Source: Rickettsiales bacterium (GTDB lineage: Bacteria > Pseudomonadota > Alphaproteobacteria > TMED109). Taken from it: a DNA stretch of 15,250 nucleotides. Position numbers and translations under genes: made by a program. The notes under the pieces are model-generated. The model saw only the letters and a list, made by a program, of their open reading frames with translations, made no database searches and was not told the DNA's origin. Positions 1,433 through 13,681 of the stretch are shown here, in pieces (position 1 is the stretch's first letter; the number at the start of each line of letters is the position of its first letter). The stretch covers positions 1 to 15,250 of the forward strand of contig PBGQ01000049.1 of NCBI GenBank assembly GCA_002720125.1, in the 5' to 3' direction.

Positions 1433-1473
1433 CCAAAATTTATATTGAAACCGTGACAGAAGGAGATAATAAA

Positions 1474-1764
1474 ATGTCAGAGATACCGCATTTGTTGGTT
1501 CATGATCACGAGGATACAGTTGGTGTTGTTGTCGTTGAAGGGCTTGAGGCTGGAACAGATATGCTTGTTTGTGTAACTCATGATAATTCAATCTTTCGGC
1601 TAACAGCTAAACAGGCAGCGCCTATTGGTCATAAGATATCGTTGAAAGACCATAAAGTAGGCGACACAGTCTATAAATATGGTGAGGACATTGGCAAAAT
1701 CATCGTAGATTGTGCGAAAGGCCACCATTTGCATACACATAACTGTAAAACCAAGCGTTGGTAA
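1474..1764 (+). CDS. suyA: (R)-3-sulfolactate sulfo-lyase small subunit SuyA
   Basis: This is the small SAF-domain subunit of (2R)-sulfolactate sulfo-lyase (EC 4.4.1.24), which with SuyB cleaves (R)-3-sulfolactate to pyruvate and bisulfite in the cytoplasm. The 96-residue product matches the UxaA N-terminal (altronate/galactarate dehydratase) fold and ends in the metal- and substrate-binding signature HHLHTHN (residues 84-90) followed by CKTKRW, an ending I associate with SuyA. ATG at 1474 is chosen because AGGAG at 1461-1465 lies 8 bases upstream; the in-frame GTG at 1453 would place that site inside the gene. The stop codon overlaps the SuyB ribosome binding site, indicating translational coupling. 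Assignment to sulfolactate rather than a sugar acid rests on the neighbours suyB, comC and suyZ. Confidence 0.88.
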
Positions 1765-1768
1765 GGAG
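1763..1768 (+). promoter_or_regulatory. suyB ribosome binding site overlapping suyA stop
   Basis: AAGGAG begins on the last two bases of the suyA TAA stop and sits 7 bases before ATG at 1776. It fixes the suyB start and couples translation of the two subunits. Confidence 0.75.
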
Positions 1769-1775
1769 CTTGATA

Positions 1776-2954
1776 ATGAACGATCTCTCAAATTTAACGG
1801 TTCAGGGTTATCGACGAGGTAATGGTCACATCGGTGTTCGCAATCACGTTTTGATACTGCCACTTGATGACATTTCAAATACAGCTTGTGAAGCGGTTGC
1901 TAATAATATTAAAGGTACATTGGCAATCCCGCACGCATATGGGCGCCTGCAATTTGGAGAAGACCTTGAAGTGCATTTTAGAACTTTGATAGGTACAGGC
2001 TGTAATGCGAATGTGGCAGCTGTTGTTGTTATTGGGATTGAGCCTGAATGGACGCAGATAGTTGTAGACGGCATAGCAGAAACAGGAAAACCTGTTACCG
2101 GGCTTTCAATAGAACAAAATGGTGATTTGAAAACTATTATGGACGCTTCTCGAGTTGCGAAGGAATATGTGCATTATGCAACCGAGATTCAGCGCGAAGA
2201 ATGCTTTTTGTCTGACTTATGGATTTCAACAAAATGTGGTGAAAGCGACACGACCACTGGCCTTGGTTCTTGCCCAACAGTTGGTAATATGTACGATAAG
2301 CTTTTACCAATAGGTATTACTGGTTTTTTTGGAGAGACTTCTGAAATCACAGGTGCTGAGCATATTTGTAAAGAGCGGGCAATTAATTCAGAGGTTGGTG
2401 AACGCTGGTATAAAATGTGGAAGGCCTATCAAGATGATGTAATTTTTGCGAACCAAACAGACGATCTCTCTGACAGTCAACCAACGAAGGGTAACATACT
2501 TGGTGGCTTAACCACCATTGAAGAGAAAGCTCTCGGTAATCTTGAAAAGATTGGCCGAACTTCAAAATATATTGATATTCTTGGTCCTGCAGAAATGCCT
2601 AAATCTGGAAAGGGCCTGTATTTTATGGATAGTTCTTCTGCAGCAGCAGAATGTGTGACGTTAATGGCTGCTGGAGGTGCGGTAATACATACCTTCCCAA
2701 CTGGCCAAGGTAATGTGATAGGCAATCCCATTGTGCCTGTTATTAAAATAACAGCTAATCCAAGAACAATTCGTACAATGAGTGAACATGTAGATGTTGA
2801 CGTATCTGGTATTTTGAGGCGCCAAACTACAATTGACGAAGCTGGCGACCAACTAATTGACATGATTGTGCGCACGGCTAACGGACGAAATACAGCTGCT
2901 GAAGCACTTGGCCATCGAGAATTTTCGATGACCAAATTATATCGTTCTGCTTAA
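1776..2954 (+). CDS. suyB: (R)-3-sulfolactate sulfo-lyase large subunit SuyB
   Basis: This is the large, iron-sulfur-type subunit of sulfolactate sulfo-lyase and a member of the UxaA C-terminal (altronate dehydratase) family. The 392 residues match the usual SuyB length of about 390. The family start motif [15 protein letters not shown] (residues 11-25) is followed by segments such as [20 protein letters not shown] (31-50) and [14 protein letters not shown] (80-93), which I recognise as SuyB-like. KCGESD at 153-158, with further cysteines at 76 and 166, is the likely cluster and substrate region. ATG at 1776 follows AAGGAG by 7 bases; a TTG at 1758 in the same frame has no such site. Together with SuyA it releases sulfite and pyruvate, so cells need a way to remove sulfite; suyZ two genes downstream fits that need. 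Confidence 0.9.
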
Positions 2955-2988
2955 TAAGGGAGTGTGGTAGTAGGTACCGCCTTAATCA

Positions 2989-3984
2989 TTGGAACATATA
3001 ATAATTAAGACACACGAAGTAGGCCGTATCGTCAGTAGCGCCCTCCAATATCATGGATTGAGCAAACATAGTTCAGACCTGATTTCTAATGCTTTAGTTA
3101 TGGCAGAAACTGACGGCCACACAGGTCATGGCCTATCTCGTCTAAAGAGCTATCTGGAACAAATTAAAAGTGAAAAGGTAAATATTTGCCCATCTATTAA
3201 AGCAGAGTTAAATGGAAATAGCTGGTTAATGTTGGACGCAGATCATGGATTTGCTTTTACAGCTTTTGATCATGCTTTTTCTAGGGCCGTGCCTCTTGTT
3301 CGCAAAAATGGAGCGTTGCTCGTAACTATAAACAAATCGCATCATGCTGGGGTTCTTGGTCATCAAGTTGAGCGATATTCAGAGATGGGGATTATAGCAC
3401 TTATGTTTTCGAACAGCCCTGCCGCAATGGCGCCTTGGGGCGGGTCTACACCTATTTTTGGAACTAACCCTGTCGCATTTGCCTGTCCAAGACATACTGC
3501 GCAGCCACTTCTGATTGATCTCTCTCTTTCAAAGGTGGCGCGAGGTAAAATTATGAGATTAAAAAAAGAGGGCAAAACAATTCCAAATGACTGGGCTATT
3601 GGTCCAAATGGTTCCGCCACAACCGATCCTGAGCAAGCTTTAAAAGGAGCGATGTTGCCGATAGGTGGGGTAAAAGGTGCATCTCTCGCATTAATAGTTG
3701 AACTGATGACGGCAGGGCTCGCAGGCGCGCATTATGGGTTCCAAGCCTCCTCTTTTATGGATGCAGAGGGTTCAAAGCCAAATGTTGCTCAGACACTAAT
3801 TCTTATAGCACCTCCAGCGGAACGATTAATTCATTTTGAGAAGTTGTTCACAGCTATTTTAGCCCAGCCAGGCACTCGTCTTCCTGGAATGAACCGGTTT
3901 AAAAAGCGAGCAGATGTTACAAAAAATGGATTGAGAGTTCTCAAAGATGATTATGAATACATTTTATCACAGGCGAAAAAATGA
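2989..3984 (+). CDS. comC: (R)-sulfolactate dehydrogenase ComC (malate/lactate dehydrogenase family)
   Basis: This NAD(P)-dependent 2-hydroxyacid dehydrogenase of the malate/L-lactate (type 2) family is best read as ComC, (2R)-3-sulfolactate dehydrogenase (EC 1.1.1.338). ComC reduces sulfopyruvate to (R)-sulfolactate, the substrate of SuyAB. Family motifs are present: TDGHTGHG (41-48), the catalytic histidine region SHHAG (117-121, probable catalytic His119), GTNP (158-161) and IGGVKG (225-230). The last replaces the GGHKGY common in malate dehydrogenases, which supports a different substrate. The 331 residues are full length. The start is TTG at 2989, since a stop lies two codons upstream and no ATG or GTG comes early in the frame. 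Only a weak AGG is seen 14 bases before it, so translation may be modest or coupled. The gene overlaps suyZ by 4 bases. Confidence 0.82.
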   Translation: MEHIIIKTHEVGRIVSSALQYHGLSKHSSDLISNALVMAETDGHTGHGLSRLKSYLEQIKSEKVNICPSIKAELNGNSWLMLDADHGFAFTAFDHAFSRAVPLVRKNGALLVTINKSHHAGVLGHQVERYSEMGIIALMFSNSPAAMAPWGGSTPIFGTNPVAFACPRHTAQPLLIDLSLSKVARGKIMRLKKEGKTIPNDWAIGPNGSATTDPEQALKGAMLPIGGVKGASLALIVELMTAGLAGAHYGFQASSFMDAEGSKPNVAQTLILIAPPAERLIHFEKLFTAILAQPGTRLPGMNRFKKRADVTKNGLRVLKDDYEYILSQAKK

Positions 3985-4718
3985 CCAATCACTTATACGG
4001 AATAGCGCATCGATATTACCCCGGAATAATTTTAGCAGGAATTTTAGCTCTTGCAGCTCAATTTATTTCTGATCATTATGGCGCTCCAACGATGCTTATG
4101 GCATTGCTTTTTGGAATGGTTTTGAGTTTTCTCTCTAAAGAAGAGCGTTGTGTAGAGGGAATAAATTTTGTTGCGAAGAAAGTTCTTAGGTTAGGTGTTT
4201 CCTTGCTTGGTGCTCGAATAAGTTTTGAGATGATTTCAGCAATAGGGCTTGTAAATGTGGCAATCACATTAATTGCAGTGTTAGCCACAATAAGTTTTGG
4301 AATTTTTCTATCTAAATGGTTGAAGATTGATAGGTATTTTGCCTTTTTAACTTCTGGTTCGGTTGCTATTTGTGGCGCTTCTGCGGCTATTACAATTGCT
4401 GCTATTTTACCAAAAAATAAAGAGCGTGACGAAGAGCTTATATTCACAGTTGCTGGCGTCACAGTTCTGTCAACATTTGCAATGATACTATATCCCATCT
4501 TAGGTCAAAAAATTGGACTTACAGGAGATGCATTAGGGGTTTTTTTAGGTGCAACTATTCATGACGTTGCTCAGGTTGTAGGGGCAGGATATTCCGTTGA
4601 TGAACCAACAGGTGATATTGCAACAATTGTTAAATTGTTGCGAGTTGCGATGCTTGCTCCTGTCGTCATTATCGCCGGATTAATTATTCGTTATGCAATA
4701 GGGGGGGGGAGGAACTAG
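3981..4718 (+). CDS. suyZ: Putative sulfate/sulfite exporter SuyZ, N-terminal three quarters (frame broken at G9)
   Basis: This is an inner-membrane exporter of the putative sulfate exporter (PSE, YeiH/UPF0324) family. In Paracoccus the suyAB-linked member SuyZ is proposed to remove the sulfate or sulfite produced from sulfolactate. Hydrophobic helices alternate with family motifs: RLGVSLLGARIS (70-81), AICGASAAI (129-137), IHDVAQVVGAG (193-203) and KLLRVAMLAPVV (218-229). The start ATG overlaps the comC stop as ATGA. As read, the frame ends at TAG 4716, seven codons into and after a run of nine G (4701-4709), giving 245 residues. The rest of the protein continues in the next frame. Reading through with one G fewer would give about 331 residues, the normal family length. 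Causes could be a sequencing error, slippage-based phase variation, or a real inactivating mutation. Confidence 0.85.
   Translation: MTNHLYGIAHRYYPGIILAGILALAAQFISDHYGAPTMLMALLFGMVLSFLSKEERCVEGINFVAKKVLRLGVSLLGARISFEMISAIGLVNVAITLIAVLATISFGIFLSKWLKIDRYFAFLTSGSVAICGASAAITIAAILPKNKERDEELIFTVAGVTVLSTFAMILYPILGQKIGLTGDALGVFLGATIHDVAQVVGAGYSVDEPTGDIATIVKLLRVAMLAPVVIIAGLIIRYAIGGGRN
4701..4709 (+). repeat. Homopolymer of nine G inside suyZ
   Basis: Nine consecutive G stand out in an AT-rich sequence and lie exactly where the suyZ frame breaks. Losing one G, or gaining two, restores the full exporter frame. Such tracts are slippage-prone in replication and in sequencing. Confidence 0.9.
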
Positions 4719-6075: not shown

Positions 6076-6432
6076 GTTAAAAACTGCCTTAGGAAAATAC
6101 TTAATATAACAAATCTCGTTTTATCAGTAAGTTGTGTGTCAATAACTCCATATTAATTCACCTTTCTATATATTTTAAAAAATTTTTAATTTTTAAACTT
6201 GAAATTTATAAAAAAAGGTAATACATACTGACCTAAGTGGCACGTTTTTTGTAACATGTTGTTTGGAATTGAATGAAATAAATCTGTTTGTGAAAGATTT
6301 TGGGTTCAATCATAACTGCTCTATTTGAGACTGAATTATATCTGTGTTAATTGAAATCAAAGCAGACAAAAGTCGTCCATTTTTTTCTTCAATTACTCAG
6401 ATGTTCGTTATTTACTTTGGGAGTTATATTCT
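6076..6432. other. Intergenic region upstream of the gltB-like gene
   Basis: This 357-base, very AT-rich stretch probably holds the promoter of the gltB-like gene. I see no gene, no clear terminator hairpin for the upstream gene and no promoter pair with good spacing. GGGAG at 6419-6423, 9 bases before the TTG at 6433, is a good ribosome binding site and supports that start. Confidence 0.5.
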
Positions 6433-9400
6433 TTGAAAAAACTTAGAAGTCACCTTGGTTTGTATGATCCCAATTTAGAGCACAGCGCTTGCGGTGTTGG
6501 TTTTCTTACGAGGAAAGACGGTAATCAAACTCACGAAATTCTGAAACTGGGTAATGAAGCGTTATGCGCAGTTCCTCATCGGGGAGGTATGTCGGCAGAG
6601 GGTGTAGGTGATGGTGCAGGTGTATCAATTGACCTTTCTGAATCGTTTTTTTCAAAACTAACAAAATCCAGACTAAAAACAGGGAAATTTGGGGTTGGTA
6701 ATTTTTTCTTTCCAAACGACAAAAAACAGCATAATAGCGCAAATGAAATTATTAAACAAACATTTAACAAATTTGATTTCAAAGTCCTTTTACAGCGAAC
6801 AGTTCCCGTGAATATGGAAAAGCTTGATAAGAGAGCACAAAAATATCAACTTCCTATAAAACAATGGATATTTTTGCAGCCAGACCGTAAACACGAAACA
6901 TATAATTTCGATTCTGAAATTTACAAAAGTATGTTAATGATAGAAGCCCGTGCTTACCAAGATCTGAGTTTGGAGGGTCTTTATCCATTATCTTTATCAT
7001 CAAAGCTTCAAGTGTTAAAAGGAAGATTGAACTCTTGGGAATTGATACCTTACTTCAATGATCTTAATGATCCAGAACATGAGGTTCATTCTCTTTATTT
7101 TCACACGAGATTTTCCACAAATACTGACCCACACCCCACAATGGCGCAACCTTTTAGATTGATGGCGCATAATGGTGAGTTGAATACGGATAAAAAAAAT
7201 CGTTTGTCCGAAACAGCTATAGCACTTGCAAGAAATAATCAAATTATAAGACCCAAGGGCCAATCCGACTCTTGTAGATTGGATCAAACACTTAATTCAA
7301 GAGTTTTTGAAGAAAATTTAGATTTAGTTACTGCTGTTGTGTCAATGATGCCACCTGCCTGGGAGAATGACAAAAACATCAGTAAACCGGTAAAAGCTAT
7401 GCTTGAATATTTTTCGTTATTTGAGGAAAAGAATGATGGCCCAGCGGCACTTATATTTGGAGATGGTAAAATCATAGGTGCTAGATTAGATAGATTAGGT
7501 TTGAGACCGCTGAGAAGCGTAGAGACGGCTGAGTTTCTTGCGGTTACTTCAGAAGCTGGACAGATATATTTTGATCCCGAAAAAATAATAAGTCGTGGTC
7601 GAGTTGAGGCTGGTGGTATGATTTACTACGACCATGGTTTAAAGAAAACCTTTCGAACAAATGAAACTCTAGAAAATTTAGCCAGTCGAGTGGACTATCA
7701 GAAACTACTTTCAAACCTTAGCGTTAAAATTAAAAGTCTTCCTGAACCAAAAGTTAAACCAGAGGTGGCAGCTTCATCTTATGATGGTGATCTTGAGTTG
7801 GATGCTAAATACGTTGCGTATTCTCATAATCAAGAAAGTTTTAAATTTTTGCTAGACCCTATGCTTAATTATGGTTCCGAAAAAGTGTCGGCTATGGGTT
7901 ACGGGAACGCTATAAATGCGCTTTCGGATGTTGAAGGTGGTATAGCAAAATATTTTAGTCAAAGGTTTGCTCAAGTGACAAACCCACCATTAGATTCAAT
8001 CAGAGAAGCCGATGGAATGACTCTTAGGGTTTCCTTGGGTGAGAAGCCGCATAATGGAAAATCTAGATCAAAGCAAATAATTTTGGATAGTCCAATTCTT
8101 AAAATGTCCGAAATTTTAAAAATAAGAGAGCAAAAATTTACGCCGTGTGAAACATTCGATATTCTCTATGAGCCAGAGCCTGATAATGTTGAAATTAACG
8201 AAGATAATTTACTTAGAGCCATTGATAATGTTTGCGACAACGTTGCTAATTTTGCTCAAAAAAAGGGTGGTATAGCCATACTATCAGACAGAGGTATGTC
8301 CAAAAAGTTTGCATCAATCCCGCTAATTTTAGTAATATCGACAATTAATCAAAAGTTAATCGCGGATGGACTAAGACTTAAGGTTTCGGTCATAGCAGAG
8401 AGCGGCCAAATTGTGTCATCACATCACATAGCATGTGCGTTAGGCTTTGGGGCCTCAGCCGTTTATCCGATCTCGGTAAGATTGAGAGCGGAAGAGCTGT
8501 TTGGAGATGAAAAGGCCACTGAAGCTTTTCAGCGTTTTCGGAAAGCTGGTGAAAAAGCGTTAATGAAAACCATGGGGAAGGTTGGTCTTTGTACAGCAGA
8601 GAGTTACATCGGGGGAGAATTTTTTGAACCAAATTTTCTTGACACTAATGATCCAGTTCTATCTCGTATGCTCCCAAATATGAAAACACCTGTGGGAGGA
8701 GTGCGATTTCGGACTATTTCGCAATCAGCCGCGGATTGGCACTCATATTCGAAGAAAATACAAACATCGAATGACATACCTATTCTTGGATTATTTAAAG
8801 AGCGGTCTGAGGGTGCCGGTCATTCTTTCGGTACAGCTGCAGTTCGAGGCTTCGTAGATTTAACGGAAGAAGAAATTAAATTTTCTGATAAACAAAATAA
8901 TATCCTGGATGGTGAGGTAAACCCGTTCAGTGTTATGACCCTTAATCAGATGAAAGATGCTTTCGACATAGACGAAAATGGATATGTTAATACTAGTTTC
9001 GAAGAGCTCGATGAATCCGTGATTGATAACTTTGAAATTACCTCCGCATATAGAAAGTTTTCACTTGATATTTTTGAAGAAAGAATGAACAGACCTGCTG
9101 CTTTGCGGGACATTCTATCACTACCAGCTGATATCACTTACATGACTACATACGAAGACATTAAGCGCGAAATGATGCTTTTTAATCGAGCGGGTAATAA
9201 CGATTTTGTCATACGGGGTTTGACTTGTGTTAAAGTATCTGAAGACAATTTTAACCTAAATTTAACAGGTCCTTTGGCTTATGACTTAGGAAGGTTGGAT
9301 ATATTAGCACAAACTCTGATTGACCGTTTTAATGAAGATATTAAGGGTCACTTTGTTTCTAGTCGTTCATTAAATATTACAGCTTCTGGATTTGCTAAAG

Positions 9401-11952
9401 ATTATTTGGAAAGACTTCGTGGAGCACCATCATCTATTGAGATTGATATGGTTCAACCTGCTTCAGAAATAACGAAAAAGATTGCGTCAGGGGCAATGTC
9501 TCATGGGGCCCTTGTAGCTTCAGCTCACGAAGCTGTTGCTCATGGCACAAATATGGTAGGCGGAATGTCAAACTCTGGTGAAGGTGGGGAACACATCAGC
9601 CGTTATGGAACAATTCGTGCTAGTAGGATTAAGCAGTTTGCCTCAGGCAGGTTTGGCGTTTGGGCTGGTTATTTAGCAGACCCTAAACTAGAGGAAATTG
9701 AAATAAAGATTGGGCAGGGAGCAAAACCGGGAGAAGGTGGACAATTACCGGCTGCAAAAGTAACTGTAGAAATCGCTGCTGCGAGAGGAGGCACGCCAGG
9801 AGTGGAGCTAATATCTCCTCCCCCTCATCATGATACTTATTCGATAGAAGACTTAGCCCAATTGATTCATGACGCGAAGGCCGCTCGTGTTAGAGTTATA
9901 GTAAAGTTGGTGAGTTCCGAGGGCATTGGAACCATCGCAGTGGGCGTTGCTAAAGCTGGAGCTGATGTAATTAATGTTGCAGGTAATACCGGAGGAACTG
10001 GGGCCGCTGCCGTCACATCTCTTAAATATACTGGAAGAGCAGCGGAAATCGGTATAGCGGAAGTTCACCAAGCTTTATGCCATAATGGGCTTCGCGAGAA
10101 GGTTGTTCTGCGAAGTTCCGGCGCCATGCAAACCGGATTAGATATAATTAAGGCATCTCTATTGGGCGCGGACAGTTTTGAATTTGGGACAACAGCGCTC
10201 ATGATGCTTAAATGTGTCATGGCAAAGAATTGTAATATTAAGTGTCCTGCAGGTTTAACAACAAACGCGGAAACCTTTAGCGGAGACCCAAGAGCTTTGG
10301 CACAGTATCTCCTTAATATCGCTCACGAGGTAAGGGAGATTTTAGCTATGCTTGGTTTTAAGAACTTAGAAGAAGCCAGAGGTAGGTCTGACCTTTTGCA
10401 TCTTTTAGATCATCCAGCTTCGATAGGTCATTTAAACCTTAGAGAGATGTTAACTAGAGTTGAAGCAGAAAAAGTAAACAAACCTAAATATATGCCACGC
10501 GATTATTCGGTTGATGATTTTTTGCTTGGTCAAGTTGAGAATTTTCTTCGTTCTGACGAAACCGAAATTATATTGAAGCCGAACACTCCGCTCAATAATC
10601 GAAATAAATCTGTTGGCGGACAATTATCAATCGACATAGAACGTATACTAAACTACGGGAAAAAAATGAAATCTGGAAGCATTGTAACCGATAATCGTGG
10701 ACGTTGTTTTTTAGATTATGAGAGCGTAAAAATTGCAACAAAGGGTTCTGCCGGCCAGAGCTTTGGAGCTTTTTGTAATGATGGTATGGTTTTTGAACAC
10801 ACGGGAACATGCAATGACGGTGTAGGCAAAGGAGCGTGTGGCGGAAAAATTATCGTAAAATCGCCCGCTGGTGGTGGTAAGCACTACGGAGATAACGTTC
10901 TCGTTGGAAACTTTACCTTATTTGGTGCATCTGGTGGAAAAGCTTTTATTGAGGGGCAAGCTGGTGACAGGTTTGCAGTACGAAACTCAGGAGCTACCGC
11001 GGTTGTTGAAGGGGTTGGTGAGTTTTGCGCGGAGTATATGACCAACGGCGCAATTTTGAATATTGGAGGATTTTCAAAGGGTTTTGGTAACGGTATGTCG
11101 GGTGGTTTTGCTTACCAATATGATCCAGAAAACATATTTGAGCAATTTGTTAGTCACGACTCTGTGATTTTAGGTAAAATTGGTCAAGGAGAGACTTCAG
11201 AGGCAGTGCATGAACATGCTGTAAAACAAATGCTTGAATGGCATTATTTAGAAACTAAATCATCCAAAGCGAAAAAACTAATTCAAGATTGGGACAAAAT
11301 TAAAGAAAAAATATGGTGGGTAATGCCAAAAGCTCTCCTGCAGTATCAAGATTATGAGGAGATACTGTCCTCAAAATCGAGAAAAGAGATAACGGAGGAA
11401 TTAGCCACTGCCCTTGCTAATCATCAGGTAAAAAAGATCAAATCTGCTTGGAAACTCAATTCTCCAGTTAATGATGGTGCTATTCCTACTGAAACTAAAG
11501 AAAGTAAAAAATCCATGGCAGAGCTGTTAAATTCCTACACAGTTTTGGATATGGCTCAGAAAATTATATTAAAAAAATCAAAAAATATTTGGAATGGAAA
11601 TATCAGTGATCAGCTAACCAAAAATCTTATAATGACAGAAGATTTTAGTCTTATGACAGAGTTGTCTAAGTATGCAAAAGAGGCGTTAGCAGATTACACA
11701 GATGAAGAAATTGCTATTCTGGTGGCGAATAAAAGATTAACAGATTTTAAACAAGCTTTGGCATTGAGAAATGTTATTAGCATGGAAAGTCCAGCAACGT
11801 ATTCTTGGATTATCTATCAAAATCAAAAAAATATAAATGCGTTAGGTTCTATACCAAGCTTTGATGAATTATTTGCCAAGTCAACTTTGGCAGAACTTAG
11901 CCAGACAGTTTTTATGGACAAAGGTAATGAAATCTCTAAATATACCCATTGA
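6433..11952 (+). CDS. gltB: Oversized glutamate synthase large-subunit homologue (GltB-like)
   Basis: The family makes two glutamates from glutamine and 2-oxoglutarate (EC 1.4.1.13/14). Cys20 in HSACGVGF is the expected amidotransferase nucleophile after removal of residues 1-19. The class II glutaminase domain follows with RFSTN (226-230), HNGE (246-249), SDS (278-280) and DGPAAL (335-340). Next are the central domain (about 480-780), the FMN/synthase domain (about 1005-1350) with QGAKPGEGGQLPAAKVT, and the GXGXG beta-helix domain (about 1395-1590). Oddities: about 100 extra residues at 898-1001; GNTGGTGAAA (1184-1193) where E. coli has GYDGGTGASP; SSGA (1228-1231) for VDGG; cysteines 1261, 1267 and 1271 spaced x5/x3 instead of x5/x4; and about 185 residues after the usual end near 1655. 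The start is TTG. There is no gltD; an overlapping diflavin reductase follows. The family is certain, but the exact reaction and electron donor are not. Confidence 0.88.
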   Translation: MKKLRSHLGLYDPNLEHSACGVGFLTRKDGNQTHEILKLGNEALCAVPHRGGMSAEGVGDGAGVSIDLSESFFSKLTKSRLKTGKFGVGNFFFPNDKKQHNSANEIIKQTFNKFDFKVLLQRTVPVNMEKLDKRAQKYQLPIKQWIFLQPDRKHETYNFDSEIYKSMLMIEARAYQDLSLEGLYPLSLSSKLQVLKGRLNSWELIPYFNDLNDPEHEVHSLYFHTRFSTNTDPHPTMAQPFRLMAHNGELNTDKKNRLSETAIALARNNQIIRPKGQSDSCRLDQTLNSRVFEENLDLVTAVVSMMPPAWENDKNISKPVKAMLEYFSLFEEKNDGPAALIFGDGKIIGARLDRLGLRPLRSVETAEFLAVTSEAGQIYFDPEKIISRGRVEAGGMIYYDHGLKKTFRTNETLENLASRVDYQKLLSNLSVKIKSLPEPKVKPEVAASSYDGDLELDAKYVAYSHNQESFKFLLDPMLNYGSEKVSAMGYGNAINALSDVEGGIAKYFSQRFAQVTNPPLDSIREADGMTLRVSLGEKPHNGKSRSKQIILDSPILKMSEILKIREQKFTPCETFDILYEPEPDNVEINEDNLLRAIDNVCDNVANFAQKKGGIAILSDRGMSKKFASIPLILVISTINQKLIADGLRLKVSVIAESGQIVSSHHIACALGFGASAVYPISVRLRAEELFGDEKATEAFQRFRKAGEKALMKTMGKVGLCTAESYIGGEFFEPNFLDTNDPVLSRMLPNMKTPVGGVRFRTISQSAADWHSYSKKIQTSNDIPILGLFKERSEGAGHSFGTAAVRGFVDLTEEEIKFSDKQNNILDGEVNPFSVMTLNQMKDAFDIDENGYVNTSFEELDESVIDNFEITSAYRKFSLDIFEERMNRPAALRDILSLPADITYMTTYEDIKREMMLFNRAGNNDFVIRGLTCVKVSEDNFNLNLTGPLAYDLGRLDILAQTLIDRFNEDIKGHFVSSRSLNITASGFAKDYLERLRGAPSSIEIDMVQPASEITKKIASGAMSHGALVASAHEAVAHGTNMVGGMSNSGEGGEHISRYGTIRASRIKQFASGRFGVWAGYLADPKLEEIEIKIGQGAKPGEGGQLPAAKVTVEIAAARGGTPGVELISPPPHHDTYSIEDLAQLIHDAKAARVRVIVKLVSSEGIGTIAVGVAKAGADVINVAGNTGGTGAAAVTSLKYTGRAAEIGIAEVHQALCHNGLREKVVLRSSGAMQTGLDIIKASLLGADSFEFGTTALMMLKCVMAKNCNIKCPAGLTTNAETFSGDPRALAQYLLNIAHEVREILAMLGFKNLEEARGRSDLLHLLDHPASIGHLNLREMLTRVEAEKVNKPKYMPRDYSVDDFLLGQVENFLRSDETEIILKPNTPLNNRNKSVGGQLSIDIERILNYGKKMKSGSIVTDNRGRCFLDYESVKIATKGSAGQSFGAFCNDGMVFEHTGTCNDGVGKGACGGKIIVKSPAGGGKHYGDNVLVGNFTLFGASGGKAFIEGQAGDRFAVRNSGATAVVEGVGEFCAEYMTNGAILNIGGFSKGFGNGMSGGFAYQYDPENIFEQFVSHDSVILGKIGQGETSEAVHEHAVKQMLEWHYLETKSSKAKKLIQDWDKIKEKIWWVMPKALLQYQDYEEILSSKSRKEITEELATALANHQVKKIKSAWKLNSPVNDGAIPTETKESKKSMAELLNSYTVLDMAQKIILKKSKNIWNGNISDQLTKNLIMTEDFSLMTELSKYAKEALADYTDEEIAILVANKRLTDFKQALALRNVISMESPATYSWIIYQNQKNINALGSIPSFDELFAKSTLAELSQTVFMDKGNEISKYTH

Positions 11953-13681
11953 TGCCCCGTTCAACGAAAACCAGAGAGCTTGGTTAGATGGTTTTGTCGC
12001 TGGGCTCAAGTCCAGCGATTGGAGCAATTCTAGCAGTGAAAGCGTACATAACGCTAACAATTTAAAGACTTTGGAAATCTTATTCGGAACGCAAACCGGA
12101 AATGCTGAGGGACTTGCGAACGATGCGGCTACCTTAGCAAAGACAAGAGGATATTTGGCAAACGTACGTGAACTAGATTCCATCGATATGGAATATTTAG
12201 CAAATGTTGAAAATGCTATTATAATCGTGTCAACTTATGGCGAAGGGGAAATGCCCGATAATGCCGGAATATTCTGGGATTCCTTAGTATCAGAGTCTGC
12301 ACCCAGATTGGAGGCGCTTTCTTTCGGTGTTTTGGCATTGGGTGATACTAGTTACGATGAATTTTGCCAAGCTGGAAAATTAATTGATACAAGGCTTGAA
12401 CAATTAGGCGCTATGAGAACTAGTGTTAGGATAGATTGCGATGTAGATTTTGAAGAGCCTGCTGCTAATTGGTTGGATTTAGCCATTCCAGATATGGGAA
12501 CCTCTTTAAATGAAACCTCTAAAATGAATTCTTCCTCGAATGGAAAAGAAAACATTGATGAGGCACCACCTAGTTGGAACAGAAAAAATCCATATCAAAC
12601 TTATTTAAAGGAAAATCGGCTTTTATCTGCCTCGGGATCGGCGAAAGAAATCAGACATATTGGTGTAAATATAGCCAACAGCGGGATCACGTATGAAGCT
12701 GGTGACTCACTAGGTATTATGCCGGTCAATTCATCTTATCTTGTTGAAGAAATCATAAAAATTTTAGGAGTAAATCAAGACTATTCACTGGAAGGTACAG
12801 ATGAAAGCTTGTCAGGTCTTTTGAGCACAAAATACGAAATAATGACACCCTCTAAGGACTTGATTTATGAGGTAGAGAGACATGCGTCAAACACTGGTCT
12901 TAGTTCCGCCATTGCAAACAAAGAGACGCTAGACACATTTCTTTGGGGACTGGATACCTTAGACTTATTAAAGTTATTAAAGGATTTTCATTTTTCACCT
13001 GAACAATTTATTAAACTTCTCAGACCGTTACAACACAGAGCTTATTCTATTTCATCTAGCTTCAAATCCTTCCCAGAAGAGATCCATCTAACCGTAGCGG
13101 CAGTGAGATGGACGTATGATGATAGAATACATAATGGTGTTGCCTCTACCTTTCTTGCTGATCAGAACTCTGGTGAAACAACCAATGGGGTTTTCCTATT
13201 GCCAAATAAAAATTTCCGAGTGCCTAAGGATGATAGTGTCCCTATGGTTATGGTTGGTCCAGGAACAGGAATTGCTCCCTTTAGAGCTTTTTTACAGGAA
13301 AGAGAAGAGCGTGGCGCGAAGGGAATGAATTGGCTGTTCTTTGGCGATCAGCATAGAAAATACGACTTCCTTTATGAGCAAGAACTTGGCCAAATGAGTG
13401 ACACCGGTCTTTTAACACGTCTTGACTTAGCATTCTCTAGAGACCAGAAGGAAAAGATTTATGTCCAAAATAGAATGCTGGAAAATAGTTATTCACTTTT
13501 TAAGTGTTTGGAAGAGGGCGGACATTTCTACGTGTGCGGTGACGCCTCTAAAATGGCCAAGGATGTTGATAGAGCACTTTTTGAGGTTATAAAGCATCAA
13601 GGTAGTTTTACAGATGAACAGACAACCGATTATATTAATTTGCTAAAAAAAGAGAAAAGGTATTTACGGGACGTTTATTAA
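11927..13681 (+). CDS. CysJ-type NADPH diflavin reductase (sulfite reductase flavoprotein alpha)
   Basis: The 584-residue protein carries electrons from NADPH through FAD to FMN, as in CysJ. After an N-terminal segment of CysJ type (FNENQRAWLDGFVAGL) comes a flavodoxin domain with GTQTGN (54-59), STYGEGE (102-108) and LGDTSYDEFC (138-147). A linker (about 175-215) leads to the FAD domain with RAYSISSS (371-378), then the NADPH domain with GPGTGIAPFRAF (444-455), FSRDQKEKIYVQ, YVCGD (535-539) and the CysJ-like end RYLRDVY. ATG 11927 lies inside the gltB-like gene, overlapping its end by 26 bases; AAGG is only 2 bases before it, so coupled translation is likely. CysJ normally serves CysI, which is absent here. 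The position suggests it may instead feed the GltB-like enzyme. Dedicated sulfite reduction with a distant CysI remains possible. Confidence 0.88.
   Translation: MKSLNIPIDAPFNENQRAWLDGFVAGLKSSDWSNSSSESVHNANNLKTLEILFGTQTGNAEGLANDAATLAKTRGYLANVRELDSIDMEYLANVENAIIIVSTYGEGEMPDNAGIFWDSLVSESAPRLEALSFGVLALGDTSYDEFCQAGKLIDTRLEQLGAMRTSVRIDCDVDFEEPAANWLDLAIPDMGTSLNETSKMNSSSNGKENIDEAPPSWNRKNPYQTYLKENRLLSASGSAKEIRHIGVNIANSGITYEAGDSLGIMPVNSSYLVEEIIKILGVNQDYSLEGTDESLSGLLSTKYEIMTPSKDLIYEVERHASNTGLSSAIANKETLDTFLWGLDTLDLLKLLKDFHFSPEQFIKLLRPLQHRAYSISSSFKSFPEEIHLTVAAVRWTYDDRIHNGVASTFLADQNSGETTNGVFLLPNKNFRVPKDDSVPMVMVGPGTGIAPFRAFLQEREERGAKGMNWLFFGDQHRKYDFLYEQELGQMSDTGLLTRLDLAFSRDQKEKIYVQNRMLENSYSLFKCLEEGGHFYVCGDASKMAKDVDRALFEVIKHQGSFTDEQTTDYINLLKKEKRYLRDVY

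Follow-up and report, generated by a model that had tools for sequence, protein, structure and literature searches.

A long GltB-type protein and an adjoining CysJ-type diflavin reductase as a probable NADPH-dependent glutamate synthase

The gene pair and the genome that carries it

The stretch of DNA analysed here (the window, 15,250 bases) is the entire contig C51 (PBGQ01000049.1) of a 51-contig assembly totalling 1.42 Mb, with a completeness of 79% and a contamination of 5%. On its plus strand it carries a gene for an alpha-type glutamate synthase subunit of unusual length (long gltB, 6433..11952, TTG start, 1839 aa), followed by the gene of a CysJ-type diflavin reductase (11927..13681, 584 aa). 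The longest open reading frame (ORF) of the reductase opens at 11861 and ends at 13681, but since the closest homologues are 584 aa long its start was placed at the ATG at 11927, and the two genes therefore overlap by 26 bases. This arrangement had been proposed in a preliminary description of the sequence, and ORFs, domains and homologue length agree with it; also as described there, gltD and cysI were both absent from the eight window ORFs scanned. That description further suggested that the diflavin protein replaces GltD in an alternative NADPH-dependent glutamate synthase or a related amidotransferase.

The long form is the sole GltB in the window's assembly, in which neither PF14691 (the GltD-type domain, even at E <= 1) nor PF01077 (the sulfite/nitrite reductase domain) was found at 79% completeness. 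The assemblies of the closest relatives (G041, G042) likewise rendered no canonical GltB, GltD-type domain or PF01077. A normal gltBD pair together with a lone cysI elsewhere in the genome, which would have spoken for an ordinary CysJ, was thus seen in none of these three genomes. In the window's family, a canonical-type GltB match was found in 25 of 27 other sampled genomes (some fragmentary) and the long form in none of the 27, and a full-length reductase match was found in none of 40 sampled relatives. For both reasons a contaminating contig was considered, and it was ruled out by two SAR116 assemblies on 107- and 221-kb contigs (L014, L015), whose GltBs are 99% and 95% identical to that of the window and which carry the same pair with, as in the window, an NDUFA9-like gene before it and uppP after it. 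The near-identical GltB, the same neighbours and the large contigs indicate that the pair belongs to SAR116.

Architecture of the two proteins

The long GltB holds all four GltB Pfam domains (GATase_2, Glu_syn_central, Glu_synthase and GXGXG). The first 19 residues (6433..6489), by analogy a propeptide, precede the presumed catalytic N-terminal Cys, C20, which aligns with Cys1 of the mature Azospirillum GltB (A. brasilense sequence L150; chain 1ea0). The glutaminase domain (GATase_2) spans residues 20-424 (6490..7704), the FMN-binding synthase domain residues 998-1309 (9424..10359) and the GXGXG domain residues 1418-1585 (10684..11187). Two extra regions with approximate edges account for the length of the protein, the first lying between the central and FMN domains (around residues 803-988; 8839..9396) and the second being a C-terminal extension (around residues 1638-1839; 11344..11949). 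Residues 8-802 and 989/996-1637 align to solved GltB sequences, and both extra regions remain unaligned; where the long GltB has about 190 and about 200 residues, the solved chains have only some 15-45. The window's copies of these regions matched no Pfam family above cut-off, and profiles of both found no relative among PDB sequences below E 0.6. They may be docking surfaces for the electron donor, as the preliminary description had suggested. Against the NCBIfam model PRK11750 the protein scores 1046 bits, the cut-off being 1047.

A comparison of 79 long GltBs with 13 canonical ones (12 from the window's family and one from Azospirillum) rendered 76 class-specific positions. In the alignment the 79 long proteins retain the N-terminal Cys and the main motifs of the glutaminase and synthase domains. 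One difference concerns the Fe-S loop, C1261-x5-C1267-x3-C1271 in the window (10213..10245). The spacing C-x5-C-x3-C is found in 79/79 long GltBs, and also in 120/120 best matches, whereas 13/13 canonical sequences have C-x5-C-x4-C; the long-GltB loop is thus one residue shorter and departs from the spacing of the [3Fe-4S] ligands in GltBD. Class-specific residues in this loop are K1260 (just ahead of the first Cys), K1265, N1268 and K1270, and the lysines beside the cluster may serve donor docking. Others (S486, A487, G491 and A493) lie around the position that corresponds to Met479, a residue that may gate the way between cluster and FMN according to the consulted part of a 2021 review (PMC8097209); the same part places the potential of the cluster of glutamate synthase (GltS) near -280 mV.

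The reductase has the domains Flavodoxin_1 (FMN; 12077..12448), FAD_binding_1 (12578..13153) and NAD_binding_1 (NADPH; 13250..13570), in the order and with the motifs of CysJ, and residues 71-606 of its ORF align to solved CysJ. Among 78 reductases taken from such pairs, the T-x-T-G-N type FMN motif and RxYS are present in all 78, and a GPGTG(I/V)AP type motif in 76, the other two having GPGTGLAP. The FMN domain is acidic, with a net charge of -17 in the window (K/R minus D/E, about 146 residues) and of -20 to -9 across the 78. The median net charge of the cluster loop is +3 in long versus +2 in canonical GltBs, so that this acidic domain might conceivably dock at a basic cluster site. As to its name, the reductase passes the PRK06214 model, 'sulfite reductase subunit alpha' (443.4 vs 432), and this is the public name of its closest homologues, but with 594.6 bits it stays below the cut-off of the cysJ equivalog TIGR01931 (668.15).

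Adjacency, co-evolution and fusion of GltB and reductase

A profile of 12 long GltBs matched at least 590 stretches, of which 499 were confirmed, and the best 80 of these 499 were kept as loci. By record title, 44 are alphaproteobacterial, 15 belong to Enterobacterales (10 Pantoea, 3 Erwinia, 1 Mixta and 1 titled Enterobacter ludwigii), 7 are of SAR92/Porticoccaceae/Cellvibrionales type, 2 are betaproteobacterial, 10 actinobacterial and 2 verrucomicrobial; some of the records are bins from metagenomes and could be mislabelled. The reductase is the next same-strand ORF in 78 of the 80 loci, the contigs of the other two (L033, L053) ending inside gltB. It also adjoins the long GltB in 5/5 survey loci from outside the 80, which come from the alphaproteobacterial and Mycolicibacterium-order surveys and show 44-50% identity. 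No long form lacking an adjoining reductase was found among the 78 loci whose contig continues and these five, so that the coupling noted in the preliminary description holds wherever it could be scored, and the opposite case, a long form usually standing without the reductase, did not appear. The gap between the genes, measured in 77 cases, is at most 30 nt in 58, including 14 overlaps, and the longest gaps, up to 189 nt, are in Enterobacterales.

Pairwise tree distances of both proteins correlate with r = 0.953 over 78 pairs, a value reached by none of 1000 permutations (best 0.21); as judged from these trees, the two proteins co-evolve. In the reductase tree, all 78 proteins from pairs group together in a clade with support 0.90 that excludes the four other CysJ-type proteins, of which three are partial. 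In two mycobacterial loci a second, different diflavin reductase is encoded a few kb upstream of the pair (L052:2140-3873 and L054:2189-3922, both on the minus strand; the L052 copy was checked by Pfam).

Fusions were searched for with the reductase part of a locus that has both genes in one frame, the lengths of candidates being set by the whole. Among the 120 matches listed of 4370 there are seven single-chain GltB-diflavin proteins of 2268-2482 aa, including those of Lentisphaera profundi and L. marina, whose longest contigs measure 2.65 and 2.40 Mb. Three fusions that were scanned (P0249, P0255, P0257) have the order GATase-central-FMN-GXGXG-diflavin, P0255 and P0257 being cut at the front. 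An eighth GltB-diflavin fusion (P0248, 3384 aa), listed under Artemia franciscana and joined to unrelated domains, is probably contamination or a mis-joined annotation. The x3 cluster signature is present in 8/8 GltB fusions. The remaining 112 of the 120 matches are listed as molybdopterin oxidoreductase-diflavin fusions.

The long form is uncommon and spread over several phyla. Even surveys of species genomes rendered it in 5/387 alphaproteobacterial genomes (the window's own included), in 3/150 of the order of a Mycolicibacterium (survey centre included) and in 1/56 of the order of a SAR92 genome, namely the survey centre. It also occurs on plasmids, in 9 of the 40 best among 238 matching records (99% coverage, 56-67% identity).

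Replacement of gltBD

Canonical GltB and PF14691 were looked for in 50 genomes, drawn from those of the 80 loci. All 50 have the long form, and 29 also have a canonical GltB; each of these 29 matches PF14691, in G051 through a 213-aa frame on another contig. No canonical GltB was found in the other 21, of which 9 are isolates of Enterobacterales and 12 are uncultured assemblies whose completeness is not stated; 19 of these 21 pair-only genomes also show no PF14691 match, and the two that match it are both Erwinia, with frames of about 650 and 1050-1100 aa. The absence of gltD alongside the long form, which the preliminary description proposed to score, is therefore seen in part of the genomes, 29 keeping both canonical GltB and the GltD-type domain. 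In none of the nine Enterobacterales pair genomes tested was a canonical GltB found (G073, G075, G077, G079, G081, G082, G083, G085 and G086; five titled Pantoea or Candidatus Pantoea, two Erwinia, one Mixta and one Enterobacter ludwigii).

Gene order points in the same direction. The E. coli record reads rapZ-npr-yrbL-mtgA-elbB-arcB-yhcC-gltB-gltD, and 15/15 Enterobacterales loci read rapZ-mtgA-arcB-long gltB-diflavin, with elbB and yhcC undetected; ArcZ adjoins arcB in L061. Six of the seven SAR92-type loci read aroK-aroB-long gltB-diflavin-hemE, the seventh (L085) beginning inside gltB, and 8/10 regions from the same order read aroK-aroB-gltB-gltD-hemE, L165 having no detectable aroKB and L166 ending at the contig. 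The matching orders place the pair in the slot of gltBD in two lineages of Gammaproteobacteria. The uppP/NDUFA9 position was also considered as a native gltBD slot in SAR116, but these genes were neighbours in 0/12 canonical regions, and for that reason replacement in place is not claimed for SAR116.

A probable diflavin-dependent glutamate synthase

We consider it very probable that the pair is an NADPH-dependent glutamate synthase with a diflavin electron donor, which by all signs would carry out the same catalysis as GltBD with electrons from a different source. As known glutamate synthases do, the long GltB would hydrolyse glutamine at its N-terminal Cys domain and channel the ammonia to 2-oxoglutarate at its FMN site. 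The electrons would bypass GltD, with its FAD and two [4Fe-4S] clusters, and would be supplied by the CysJ-type protein; from NADPH they would pass through the FAD and the acidic FMN domain of that protein to the altered Fe-S cluster in the long GltB, and from there to the GltB FMN. We infer the catalysis, the electron path and the type of the cluster from these comparisons. Adjacency, fusions, co-evolution and the occupied gltBD slot thus favour the replacement of GltD put forward in the preliminary description, the part that goes beyond them being the reduction of GltB itself by its neighbour, which is presumed.

According to the part of PMC12364357 (2025) that was consulted, Pantoea ananatis AJ13355 has no close homologue of the E. 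coli glutamate synthase (GOGAT), the product of its putative gltB is 64% identical to the GOGAT large subunit of Agrobacterium, and knocking out gltB causes glutamate auxotrophy (for which Hara 2012 is cited). The single GltB in the P. ananatis genome of our set (G079, locus L069) is of the long form and 68% identical to long Agrobacterium forms, and the gene knocked out was presumably a long gltB. The main text of PMC12364357 contains neither 'diflavin' nor 'sulfite reductase', and that of PMC8097209 does not contain 'diflavin'; the consulted part of the latter distinguishes three kinds of donor, namely NADPH via GltD, ferredoxin, and NADH in a fused form. A diflavin glutamate synthase appeared in no title or abstract opening found, in a search of open-licence literature only, which is not proof of its absence in print.

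The pair resembles GltBD (Azospirillum 6S6X/2VDC, Bacillus 7MFM) in the four GltB domains, the aligned N-terminal Cys, the synthase-domain motifs, NADPH as the presumed source and, in two lineages, the chromosomal slot. It differs from GltBD in having a diflavin protein and no GltD, in the shorter Fe-S loop and in the two long unaligned stretches; it therefore stands outside GltBD proper, GltD being missing and the cluster spacing different, but very probably works like a glutamate synthase. With the CysJ of NADPH-sulfite reductase (6EFV) the reductase shares domain order and cofactor motifs, but its partner is GltB and its score lies under the cysJ equivalog cut-off. CysI, the partner of CysJ, has an Fe-S centre. 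The molybdopterin oxidoreductase (nitrate reductase)-diflavin fusions likewise place a CysJ-type module on another terminal enzyme, one different from GltB. Ferredoxin-dependent glutamate synthase (Synechocystis 1LLW) is also a GltB-type enzyme without GltD, but the similarity is lower (677 bits vs 825 for 7MFM) and the window encodes a dedicated NADPH reductase alongside. The single chain of Lentisphaera is reminiscent of the eukaryotic NADH-GltS (alpha and beta fused, according to the part of PMC8097209 consulted) in combining synthase and NAD(P)H reductase, although its fused reductase is a diflavin protein and not GltD-like.

Three other explanations were weighed. The pair could be a related amidotransferase that uses NADPH and makes a product other than glutamate, as the 76 class-specific positions and the presence of both GltB types in 29/50 genomes might suggest. 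The largely retained glutaminase and synthase-domain motifs, the gltBD slot filled in two lineages, the 21/50 genomes in which it is the only GltB found and the auxotrophy reported for P. ananatis (PMC12364357, consulted in part) make this improbable; fusions, co-evolution, replacement in place and the published auxotrophy together argue for a glutamate synthase rather than for another amidotransferase. Equally improbable is that the long GltB depends on ferredoxin or flavodoxin, the diflavin protein serving only to reduce that carrier or having some other role. Ferredoxin-type GltS does function without GltD, and the window's genome encodes a separate flavodoxin-like frame (on C39) with 36% identity to the FMN domain, but the fusions attach the diflavin module directly to GltB and not one gene intervenes between the two in 78 loci. 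Finally, that the reductase is an ordinary CysJ of assimilatory sulfite reductase that merely lies beside gltB, a view in line with its best solved relatives (CysJ), its public names and a PF01077 protein in 6/16 genomes tested, is rejected as most improbable because no PF01077 partner was found in the other 10 (G000 and 9/15 further pair-only genomes, all ten uncultured assemblies), where the reductase would have no visible sulfite reductase to serve, and because fusions to GltB exist in Lentisphaera, its score under the equivalog cut-off and the separate clade of the pair reductases pointing the same way.

Several points weigh against the pair being a diflavin-dependent glutamate synthase. 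The loci are the best 80 of 499, and the adjacency count therefore speaks mostly for nearer relatives; the distance correlation is uncorrected for the shared descent of the hosts; and the 13 canonical sequences of the residue comparison are a narrow set. Absences in the window's genome, at 79% completeness, and in the 12 uncultured assemblies among the 21 pair-only genomes are each weak on their own. In 29/50 genomes canonical GltB is kept as well, and there the pair may consequently play a special part. A sulfite/nitrite reductase domain is present in each of the three Enterobacterales genomes tested, with its own CysJ-type frame beside it (L105-L107). The auxotrophy was obtained in strain AJ13355/SC17(0), the gltB of which is presumably of the long form, and a biochemical test of the electron transfer was not found in the literature examined.

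Glutamate synthase is one of the central routes by which ammonia enters biomass. If the above is true, a diflavin class exists across several phyla and provides the only GltB found in 9/9 Enterobacterales genomes tested and in part of the marine SAR116 and SAR92 assemblies, many annotations ('glutamate synthase-related', 'sulfite reductase alpha') need correcting, and a core enzyme can exchange its donor module in place. It would also offer a testable tie between nitrogen assimilation and iron economy.

A possible link to iron

The replacement of GltD by flavins removes two [4Fe-4S] clusters, that is, 8 of the 11 Fe atoms in each protomer, provided that the cluster of GltB is still [3Fe-4S]. 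It is possible, with a likelihood that we place a little under one half, that the pair represents a fourth electron-donor class, a glutamate synthase that spares iron, and that bacteria with both types switch to the diflavin form when iron is short. Consensus motifs of IdeR, Irr and Fur were scanned in the upstream regions of 77 of the 80 loci (three lacked an anchor). IdeR/DtxR-type boxes were found before long gltB in 9/10 actinobacterial loci, with 13-16 of 19 positions and p <= 0.015 (200 dinucleotide shuffles); L087 (Rhodococcus coprophilus) has none (10/19, p 0.65). Two further actinobacterial loci, L135 and L136, have 13 and 15 of 19 by hand count. Eight canonical gltB promoters from six of these genomes gave 9-13/19, L129 with 13/19 at p 0.03 and two at p 0.07. 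The ten actinobacterial loci are not independent cases because they are related (L052 and L054 share the same box), and the conserved TAGGCT in the IdeR-like boxes could partly be a promoter -10 element. An exact 14-mer from these boxes, TTAGGYTAGGCTAA, has four sites in the four genomes searched, none of them in G078, three lying before long gltB and one directly upstream of a SIP-family siderophore-interacting gene. As sequence motifs, the IdeR-like boxes of the actinobacterial loci suggest iron sparing.

Outside Actinomycetota the IdeR motif reached p <= 0.03 only in L028 (14/19), L033 and L041, as scattered single matches, and Irr/Fur reached it in four cases (L033, L038, L089, L093), about the chance level for that many tests. 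The gltB leaders of seven sources were scanned with Rfam, and no family was detected. In 20/80 loci, which belong to Alphaproteobacteria and Actinomycetota, the pair is immediately followed by a HemS/ChuX-like ORF (for example L022:14223-15200, L050:14242-15210 and L052:14119-14985), Pfam-checked in three and with a Cys-rich start in several. In Caulobacter, canonical gltBD is reduced under iron limitation according to the consulted part of PMC3751524. The IdeR boxes, the TTAGGYTAGGCTAA sites, the HemS/ChuX neighbour and the behaviour of Caulobacter gltBD make an iron-sparing role plausible in genomes with both enzymes, but this reading leaves the pair-only lineages unexplained.

Other features of the window and of related loci

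Upstream of gltB, the window has an imperfect inverted repeat, AGGTAA-N7-TGACCT (6216..6234, plus strand), relatives of which precede long gltB in three other SAR116-type and eight Rhizobiales loci. A palindrome, ATTATGTAAG-N5-CTGACATAAT, or weaker variants of it, lies before gltB in L036-L038, L041, L046, L047, L088 and L093, about 320-340 nt ahead of the catalytic Cys codon. When two Rhizobiales genomes were searched for it, each had a site at gltB and one of them had four sites with one mismatch; the exact core is a single site in G058, at gltB, and occurs at gltB with one mismatch in G055.

Positions 1453-4718 of the window resemble a sulfolactate-use operon, with a small SuyA-like ORF, a SuyB-like UxaA domain protein, an Ldh_2 dehydrogenase and a short YeiH-type sulfate exporter, genes that we presume to correspond to SuyAB/SuyZ. 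The best model of the dehydrogenase is sulfolactate dehydrogenase, at 180.7 bits and under the cut-off of 500. Divergent from this operon, on the minus strand (1-807), lies a gene for what appears by eye to be a LacI-type regulator, truncated at the contig end.

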